From Pseudomonas putida (GTDB taxonomy: Bacteria > Pseudomonadota > Gammaproteobacteria > Pseudomonadales > Pseudomonadaceae): a stretch of DNA of 64,000 nt. Position 1 is the stretch's first letter. Every line of letters starts with the position of its first letter. The DNA lies in contig NZ_CP109603.1 in assembly GCF_025905425.1 (NCBI RefSeq), positions 532,001-596,000 on the forward strand, given 5' to 3'. Below are positions 58,600 to 59,950 of this stretch, piece by piece. A model generated the notes under the pieces. It saw only the letters and a program-made list of their open reading frames with translations, did not search any database and was not told where the DNA came from. The position numbers and the translations under genes are program-made.

Positions 58600-58674
58600 A
58601 CTGGCCTCTTCGCGGGGCAAGCCCGCTCCCACTGGTACATCGCAGGGTTCAGAACTGCAGGGCGGTTGTGGGAG
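58600..58674. repeat. REP pair, right unit interrupted by the IS110 element
   Basis: The left REP (CTGGCCTCTTCGCGGGGCAAGC...) is intact at 58600-58634. The right unit begins TTGTGGGAG at 58666-58674 and resumes after the element at 59916 with AGCGGGCTTGCCCCGCGAAG. Confidence 0.88.
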
Positions 58675-58698
58675 CAACTGTCTTCTTGTGGAAGCTGG

Positions 58699-58760
58699 CC
58701 TTGCCGGCGATGGGGCGCGTAGCGCCCCAGGCCCGGCTGTGCCGGGCATCGCCAGCAAGG
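58699..58760. repeat. Cloverleaf-like repeat in the IS110 downstream end
   Basis: The outer stem CCTTGCCGGCGAT / ATCGCCAGCAAGG encloses two hairpins, GGGGCGC-GTA-GCGCCCC (58712-58728) and CCCGGC-TGT-GCCGGG (58732-58746). It resembles another common Pseudomonas intergenic repeat. Confidence 0.75.
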
Positions 58761-58767
58761 CTTGCTC

Positions 58768-59703
58768 CTACGAATGAGCTATTTGCTCCTTCCAGGGCGT
58801 TCCGGTCTTGAGCATCGCATTTAGCCTCACTATCAATACTCGCATACACGCCACCACCGATACTTTCGCGCACTTCCCCTGGGCTCGCAGTGCTTTGTAG
58901 CGCTCGCAGAAGTCCTTGTTGTGCCGTATCACCACCCAGCAGGCCATATAGAGCGCCCGCCTGACTTGTGAGCGCCCCCCCCAGATTGAACGCTTGCCCG
59001 ACTGCTTGCCGCTGTCCTGGTTGAACGGCGCAACACCGACCAAGGCGGCAATTTCCTTCTTATCCACCTGGCCCAGCTCTGGCAGCAAGGCCATCAGCTT
59101 TCCGGCAGTAATCAGACCAATTCCTTTGACTTGAGTGAGCTGTTTAACCCGGTCATCAGGCAAAGCTGCTGCCTGCTGTGCGATCTCTTGTTCCAGCGCT
59201 CGAATTTCACCCTTCAGATAGGCGATGTGTTGTTCCAACCGCAAACAAACACTGGGAGCCCGCGCCTGCTTCAGGCGCCGCTTGTCATCGTCGCGCTGTT
59301 GGACGAAGCGATCCCGCTGCATAAGCAGTTCGCGCAGCAAAGCCCGCTCGGGTGTCATCACCTGGCAAGGCCGTGGGGGCATAACTTCAGCCAGGTGAGC
59401 CAAAACAGCTGCGTCAATGGGATCGGTCTTGGCGCGTTTACCCATCGACTTGGCAAAGTCCCGGGCACGACTGGGATTGATCCGGCAAACCGGAAAATCG
59501 GCATCCTGCAGCGCTTTGAGGACATTGCACTCGTAGCCACCGGTAGCTTCGAGCAAGACCATTGAAATTGCATACCCGCCAAGCTTTTCGACGAGCAGTT
59601 GGAATCCCTTCAAGTCATTGGAAACACTGAAGTTCACCCCCTCAGGACGGATGTGAACAGCAAGTGTGGCACTGGAAACATCGATGCCGACAGAGGAAGA
59701 CAT
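58768..59703 (-). CDS. IS110-family DEDD recombinase (transposase)
   Basis: The 311-residue protein has the N-terminal RuvC-like DEDD domain (GIDVSSATLAVHI, LLEATGGYE, KTDPIDAAVLA) and the C-terminal Tnp domain with the serine motif DSGKQSGKRSIWGGRSQVRRALYMA. The ATG at 59703 (MSSSVGID) is preferred to a TTG six bases earlier. Upstream noncoding sequence (59704-59915) holds a likely bridge RNA, as in the IS110 subgroup where the RNA lies before the gene. Confidence 0.93.
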   Translation of the reverse strand: MSSSVGIDVSSATLAVHIRPEGVNFSVSNDLKGFQLLVEKLGGYAISMVLLEATGGYECNVLKALQDADFPVCRINPSRARDFAKSMGKRAKTDPIDAAVLAHLAEVMPPRPCQVMTPERALLRELLMQRDRFVQQRDDDKRRLKQARAPSVCLRLEQHIAYLKGEIRALEQEIAQQAAALPDDRVKQLTQVKGIGLITAGKLMALLPELGQVDKKEIAALVGVAPFNQDSGKQSGKRSIWGGRSQVRRALYMACWVVIRHNKDFCERYKALRAQGKCAKVSVVACMRVLIVRLNAMLKTGTPWKEQIAHS

Positions 59704-59734
59704 GGCCAAACCCTCTTAAACTCAAGGAGTGAGA

Positions 59735-59905
59735 GCGCTTTGGCTTGGCCCACGCTTGTGATTCGAGATTACGCCCCTCATCCAACTGTTCGGGCTCTCG
59801 CCAAAGTGGAACGGTGAATGGCAGCTTTTGCTCCCACACGTGCTCTGGGCACCTCGGGCTATCAGCTTGCCATTCACCGCTCTCACTTCAGATTCTATTC
59901 CCTCT
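59735..59905 (-). ncRNA. Predicted bridge RNA of the IS110 element
   Basis: Read on the minus strand, two hairpin loops are visible. The first (59814-59877, stem GTGAATGGCA / TGCCATTCAC) holds AGCCCG (59855-59860) and TGTGGGAG (59831-59838). These match the two halves of the REP site, one to each strand. The second (59738-59806, stem CTTTGGC / GCCAAAG) holds ACAGTTG (59783-59789) and CACAAG (59755-59760), which match the two ends of the element in the same pattern. Ends of the RNA are estimated. Confidence 0.8.
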
Positions 59906-59915
59906 CCAAGACACA

Positions 59916-59950
59916 AGCGGGCTTGCCCCGCGAAGAGGCCAGTACAGCCA
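59916..59950. repeat. Right remnant of the REP interrupted by IS110
   Basis: AGCGGGCTTGCCCCGCGAAG followed by AGGCCAGTACAG completes the REP unit whose start is at 58666. Confidence 0.88.

Follow-up and report, generated by a model that had tools for sequence, protein, structure and literature searches.

An IS110-group insertion sequence of Pseudomonas putida with a predicted bridge RNA directed to REP units

Results

The element, its ends and its target

The window, by which we mean the whole stretch of 64,000 nucleotides of Pseudomonas putida DNA that was analysed, contains an IS110-group insertion sequence with its transposase gene, lodged in a REP unit (Table 1). The genome it belongs to (6.14 Mb, one contig) holds 27 copies of the element, and comparison of these near-identical copies gives CT-TGTGTCTTGG as the left end and ACAGTTG-CT as the right end. 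Since the flanks vary while the interior of the 27 copies is nearly constant, the ends can be taken as fixed. The CT core is present at both ends of all 27 copies, a short shared core at a precise site. The core of IS621 is also CT. The 217-nt left end is the same as that of the window in 24 of the 27 copies and carries one change in the other three. The noncoding end upstream of the transposase (212 nt, 59704-59915) is longer than the downstream one (93 nt, 58675-58767). This right end in turn forms a REP-like inverted repeat, though of a different type (GTAGGAGCAAGCCTTGCTGGCGA ... TCGCCGGCAAGGCCAGCTTCCAC), and in two relatives (G127 and G117) a whole REP with AAGCCCGCTCCCACA lies inside the right end.

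Table 1. Features of the insertion sequence and its surroundings (window coordinates).
Feature	Position	Strand	Observation
IS110-group insertion sequence	58673..59917	-	core CT to core CT, 1245 bp
Interrupted REP target, left half AGCCCG	59918..59923	-	flank reading
Interrupted REP target, right half CCCACA	58667..58672	-	flank reading
Right element end ACAGTTG, left half of the donor	58675..58681	-	end reading
Transposase, 311 aa	58768..59703	-	ATG preceded by AAGAGGG (59711-59717)
Predicted bridge RNA, two stem-loops	about 59736..59885	-	covariance model R1, 158.3 bits (window sequence among those used to build the model); covarying helices
Target-binding stem-loop (predicted)	59813..59878	-	helix 1: both sides changed in 6/14 pairs among relatives
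Inner stem GTGC...GCAC separating the target guides	59840..59852	-	four pairs
Left target guide AGCCCG	59855..59860	-	equals left target half, 26/27 host copies over 6 nt
Right target guide TGTGGGAG, core AG included	59831..59838	-	reverse complement of CT-CCCACA, 26/27 host copies over 8 nt
Donor-binding stem-loop (predicted)	59738..59806	-	helices 3-5 of the covariation test
Left donor guide ACAGTTG	59783..59789	-	equals element right end ACAGTTG-CT
Right donor guide CACAAG, core AG included	59755..59760	-	reverse complement of CT-TGTG, element left end
Possible -10 box TAGAAT	59892..59897	-	weak consensus match
Antisense match to Rfam sX15 (RF02234)	59728..59892	+	45 bits, under the gathering score of 55

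The window copy is flanked by AGCCCG-CT on the left (59923-59916) and CT-CCCACA on the right (58674-58667). Joined, these flanks rebuild exactly the target AGCCCG-CT-CCCACA that the original prediction, made from the sequence of the window by itself, had read around the insertion point. All 27 copies in the host genome sit at this 14-mer with at most one difference, 25 of them exactly, which fits the accompanying proposal that an RNA leads the element to a repeat family. That most REP units of the window carry the same sequence proved too generous: the exact 14-mer is found in half of the unoccupied REP-like units (10 of the 20 picked by eye among 38 'TCGCGGG' feet), and two further unoccupied units differ from it in the last base only. 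Genome-wide, there are 674 exact unoccupied targets and none with the pattern read backwards.

The transposase matches PF01548 and PF02371 as well as the NCBIfam model 'IS110 family RNA-guided transposase', and its PDB matches include ISCro4 (E 8.8e-31) and IS621 (E 9.7e-29), the similarity to the latter being distant (103.9 bits). Residues D10, E54, D96, D99 and S233, numbered in a 313-residue frame, align with identical residues of IS621; we take them to be the catalytic ones. The protein combines a DEDD RuvC-like N-terminal domain with a PF02371 C-terminal domain and its conserved serine, as proteins of the IS110 group do, and its length falls within the range of recombinases of that group (about 300-460 aa). 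Transposase matches at E up to 1e-40 occur in 33 of 398 genomes drawn from the genus. A search of a plasmid collection gave 2350 records, every one below 60% identity, and a search of 144 close relatives gave no genomes beyond those already found. Several relatives show an apparent internal TGA in the transposase, which is probably due to the alignment extending beyond the normal stop.

A conserved fold with two loops

The left end has a more stable fold than its shuffles (z = -4.2). The structure that we tested, two stem-loops drawn by hand from the window sequence, was examined in an alignment of 24 left ends, the window's and 23 from relatives (the left end of G175 was excluded). Pairing is kept in 97.7% of cells, and both sides have changed in 10 of 32 pairs, a count reached by none of 500 shuffles, which excludes an absence of conserved structure. 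When the partner is slid by 1-3 columns pairing falls to at most 40.4%, a comparison that favours the unslid version on cells paired because the structure was drawn from the window sequence. The four pairs of the inner stem are invariant in the 24 aligned left ends and therefore speak neither for nor against it.

A covariance model built on the transposase strand from 22 of the aligned sequences finds 27 matches above 150 bits in the host genome, all on the transposase strand and at the 27 copies of the element; its scores on the opposite strand (18-21 bits) are low, as expected of a model built on the transposase strand. A conserved fold with two internal loops, as expected of a bridge RNA, is what the covarying helices show. 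In the draw of 398 genomes from the genus the model finds a match in 39 (E up to 0.001); where a genome has no transposase hit, many of the matches lie at contig ends, so we claim no orphan units. A search of the host genome for copies of the bridge RNA without transposase gave no further strong match among the 150 candidates scored. One locus elsewhere, L184, seems to hold a left end that lacks a transposase.

The 3' part of the left end (59704-59750) can also pair GGGCCAAGCC with GGTTTGGCC over the Shine-Dalgarno sequence, in competition with the donor stem. Such a fold might act as a switch between the guide function of the RNA and translation of the transposase.

Guides for the target and for the element's own ends

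The two words that the original prediction placed in the first loop of the minus strand, AGCCCG and TGTGGGAG, are present there on either side of the small inner stem, and their relation to the target is as it described: the left guide is the same as the left half and ends before the core, and the right guide complements CT-CCCACA with the core included. Both guides are exact in 25 of the 27 host copies. In two copies (L026 and L027) the usual REP foot is absent on the left, as judged by eye, yet the guide words fit. The left flank of L027, GGTTGAGGTGTCTAGCCCG, is not REP-like by eye and still matches seven loop letters, TAGCCCG; it could be either the product of a guide-directed insertion outside a REP or a flank that was rearranged.

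The second loop matches the element's own ends (Table 1), which the original prediction had not mentioned. Among 20000 versions of the left end shuffled by dinucleotides, the target word pair (words 5-40 nt apart) appeared once, the donor word pair once, and both together never. There is too little variation in the donor ends to test them for covariation, and the identification of this loop draws on the words and their chance of 1/20000. In two groups of relatives (G018 and G364) one more G stands ahead of the core at the right end (ACAGTTGG-CT) with no counterpart in the loop, and the fit of their right donor guide is shorter by one base.

Guides change with their targets

In the host genome and in relatives, guides were read by one rule, as the letters ending one nucleotide before the inner stem, in a chosen subset of 105 bridge-RNA places belonging to 29 groups, 100 of which had at least six letters of left flank. 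Outside this reading stand distant or cut relatives (G339, the second G188 family, G269, G132, G197, G229, G142, G068), matches at contig ends (G088, G095, G143, G285, G314, G319, G357, G148), further copies of G158, G228 and others, and the loci L124-L129, L133, L134, L140-L142 and L188-L197. Left guides are fully paired over 6 nt, by Watson-Crick or wobble pairs, at 68 of the 100 places, and right guides are exact over 7 nt, core included, at 96 of 98.

Comparing insertion sites across genomes, as had been proposed along with the original prediction, reveals guides that change together with their targets. For the left half, the pairing score is 138.67 of 162 over 27 groups (permutation mean 126.66) and 54.83 of 66 over the 11 distinct guides (mean 45.62); in either case none of 20000 permutations of the targets among groups, which ignore relatedness and count G126 as a misfit, reaches the observed value. 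The same is true (0/20000) when identity alone is counted. Scoring with wobbles of the opposite strand is matched by 4 of 20000 permutations; it too beats nearly all of them, since the signal is already contained in identity. In the right half, three of the four distinct guides match their own, differing targets. Examples are the left guides ATTCG (G018) and AGCCAG (G332), each equal to its target, and the right guides GTAGGAG with CTCCTAC (G364, G127) and TAGGAAG with CTTCCTA (G161). Among the 105 places read, none has the same loop at an unrelated target, though some mispair at one or more positions.

The first loop is thus complementary to both target strands and covaries with them, with a number of misfits. 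All three copies of G165 have CCCC where the guide has CCCG, one locus of G308 (L202) has one guide-target mismatch, and the guide of G117 mispairs with its target. The fit requires a register shift of one nucleotide in G126, G127 and G392, and the target of G188a is one base shorter. In G156 (L211 and L212) the right guide, the fourth of the distinct ones, has changed while the target is the usual one, and L208 has no readable loop.

A change of aim by one base can be followed in G265. The 217-nt left end of its closely related element carries three differences from that of the window. One falls in the guide, which is AACCCG in place of AGCCCG, and AACCCG is also what all three completely read left junctions show. 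Its transposase, whose frame is disrupted, is 98% identical to the window's over residues 1-245 and 99% over residues 195-313. Sites of the AGCCCG type number 127 in G265 and those of the AACCCG type 156; in the window's host the counts are 674 and 13. In G308, whose transposase is 97% identical, the guide is AGCCCG and the sites are AACCCG (three), AGCCCG (two) and AGGCCG (one). From this we infer that a guide with G could pair with AGCCCG or, through a wobble with the T of the bottom strand, with AACCCG, and that a guide with A would pair with AACCCG only.

At one G265 locus (L183, 840-1180) the left end is present twice in tandem, the right end is repeated (2387, 2538) and the transposase frame is disrupted. 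The second tandem junction reads NAACCCG, the N being at the join, and the arrangement is either an insertion beside an existing copy or an assembly artefact. At another locus (L185, 1240-1931), CRISPR repeats (CRISPR-DR4) form two opposed arrays, ending some 250 bp away from a related element's bridge RNA.

Strand, promoter and an antisense match

Guide-target complementarity is compatible with either strand, so we read the strand from wobble counts. The helices contain 12 G-U cells against 1 A-C (with 18 other unpaired cells). Differences between left guides and targets include 37 wobbles of the transposase-strand type and 0 of the mirror type, next to 46 other mismatches; by our reading many of the 37 come from shared descent and amount to about four independent changes. 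Right-half differences, 1 to 1, favour neither strand. The direction of the wobbles favours the transposase strand as the probable working strand, and the guide order published for IS110 elements agrees with the sense strand (PMC11187229; PMC11208160).

A standard promoter scan of the integrated region found none. A -35-like TTGCTT would stand 17 nt upstream of TAGAAT only in the excised circle, its TTG coming from the right end (58675-58677) and its CTT from 59915-59917. In all 18 groups examined this circle-junction site (TTGCTT/TTGGCT-17-TAnnnT) is the best one; it is weak, with 6-8 of 12 consensus letters, and integrated left flanks have 5-7 of 12.

The strand opposite the predicted bridge RNA resembles Rfam sX15. 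A whole-genome search with sX15 had 2 of the 27 copies among the matches listed (150 candidates scored), both at 45 bits. Eight loci were scanned: in seven, sX15 lies opposite the bridge RNA (E up to 0.01), L184 being without it, and the cut-off is passed at three of the eight (L201, L089 and L130). Across 369 genomes of the class, the search returned one match, L201 (1501-1662, 120 bits), under strict filters that missed the host genome itself. Just downstream of the RNA at L201 and on the other strand lies an IS110-type transposase fragment (38% identity, residues 6-136). The bridge-RNA model scores 57 bits on the strand of this fragment over the same stretch as sX15, and a weaker sX15 match (35.8 bits) is found on the other strand.

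Discussion

We consider it very probable that the transposase strand of the left end carries the gene for a bridge RNA, belonging to an IS110-group insertion sequence that targets REP units. The reading, which was that of the original prediction, is supported by the covarying helices, the covariation of guides with targets and the second, donor-binding loop. By analogy with published work on IS621, the RNA would act in a complex with the transposase, and the element would pass through a circle. The first loop would pair with both strands of the REP, the left guide with the bottom strand and the right guide with the top strand and the core, and the second loop would pair likewise with the joined ends of the excised element. 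Holding both DNAs on the RNA, the transposase would then catalyse their recombination at the CT core, and the element would thereby enter REP units at a single position with a fixed orientation.

Three other readings have to be weighed against a bridge RNA. The main role of the left end could be that of a regulatory 5' leader on the transposase mRNA, as in ISPpu9, the match to the target being a by-product. In ISPpu9, 5'-UTR structure and an antisense RNA regulate tnp (PMC8450116), and the 3' part of the left end studied here can indeed fold over the Shine-Dalgarno sequence. Yet a leader leaves unexplained both the guide-target covariation and the presence of two donor words matching both ends of the element; we regard it as very improbable as the main role, and a leader role and a guide role may coexist. 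Less probable still is a working guide RNA on the opposite strand, an idea that gains from the sX15 match to the antisense strand, from the abundance of the antisense RNA Asr9 of ISPpu9 (PMC8450116) and from the fact that both guides are complementary when read from the antisense strand too. Against it speak the wobbles, which favour the transposase strand 12 to 1 in helices and 37 to 0 between left guides and targets, together with the guide order stated for IS110 elements, which fits the sense strand (PMC11187229; PMC11208160).

The least probable of the three is that the transposase protein alone reads the palindromic REP, and that the loops resemble the target through captured REP DNA. REP-like inverted repeats do occur in the right end of the window element and of some related elements. 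However, between closely related elements a one-base difference in the loop is mirrored in the target, and the right guides TAGGAAG and GTAGGAG match changed targets. On the evidence of covariation, wobbles and re-aiming we reject a leader-only role, an antisense guide and recognition by the transposase by itself.

A bridge RNA in this place is of interest in that raw sequence is enough to read off guide and target, and comparison enough to check them. Its relatives form a natural series of re-aimed guides within one genus, including a single-base change between elements whose transposase pieces are 98-99% identical. The series reveals where wobble comes into play and which pairings may be tolerated, and is useful for understanding bridge recombinases.

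The antisense match opens a further question. Rfam sX15 (RF02234), which we found listed in a Herbaspirillum table (PMC6337395), overlaps the same locus in this family of elements and in one relative from the class but is annotated on the opposite strand. ISPpu9 is described as having an antisense RNA, Asr9, of about 180 nt, complementary to the 5'-UTR upstream of tnp (PMC8450116). sX15 and Asr9 may be mirror-strand RNAs of bridge RNAs, ISPpu9 being compared by its description only; sX15 itself may be a conserved antisense RNA or a strand misassignment. We tentatively suggest, while rather doubting it, that IS110 elements of at least two bacterial families could have a conserved antisense RNA exactly opposite the bridge RNA. 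If so, the elements would carry, in this antisense RNA, an antagonist or regulator of their own RNA-guided insertion, and a family already in Rfam would have gone unrecognised as the mirror strand of a bridge RNA. A limited literature search found no paper stating a link between sX15 and bridge RNAs. Such a link, with Asr9 included, would make antisense control of RNA-guided transposition directly testable.

Among known systems, IS621 is the element for which bridge RNAs were described; predictions of them cover 85.7% of the IS110 group and 93.0% of IS1111 (PMC11208160). Our element resembles IS621 in its DEDD transposase (311 aa here, 328 in the PDB chain), in an RNA located in a long left end with the target loop before the donor loop, in having a REP as target, and in the pairing of the left guide with the bottom strand and of the right guide with the top strand (PMC11208160). 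It differs in the REP sequence and in the guides, and the transposases are only distantly similar. The seekRNAs of IS1111/IS110 elements (ISPa11, ISEc21) likewise have one word per target strand, and ISPa11 also has a Pseudomonas REP as target (PMC11187229). In IS1111 elements, however, the RNA lies downstream of tnp (PMC11187229), and the position of the guide RNA upstream of the transposase rules out that group here.

Closer to home, ISPpu9 and ISPpu10 of P. putida KT2440 insert at one fixed position in P. putida REPs (PMC1525189). ISPpu9 is of the IS110 family, enters REPs with an AG (that is, CT) repeat and has small RNAs at its ends, one antisense and one sense (PMC8450116); it is set apart by its 2043 bp (PMC3056050), its 244-nt 5'-UTR and an extra ssr9 unit. 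In the available part of the 2021 paper on ISPpu9 (PMC8450116) we found no bridge-RNA reading. Its ssr9 units are flanked by the end boxes of ISPpu9 itself, joined by AG, and occur also at non-REP sites (PMC8450116); they look like mobile units consisting of a bridge RNA only, with another target. ISPpu10 is likewise an IS110 element within P. putida REPs (PMC1525189), and a predicted bridge RNA with target and donor pairing has been drawn for it (PMC11208160, Extended Data Fig. 10c). It measures 1314 bp (PMC3056050) against 1245 bp for our element, the two being compared by description only. The mechanism is thus already known, and what is new here is a further IS110-group element, possibly a close relative of ISPpu10.
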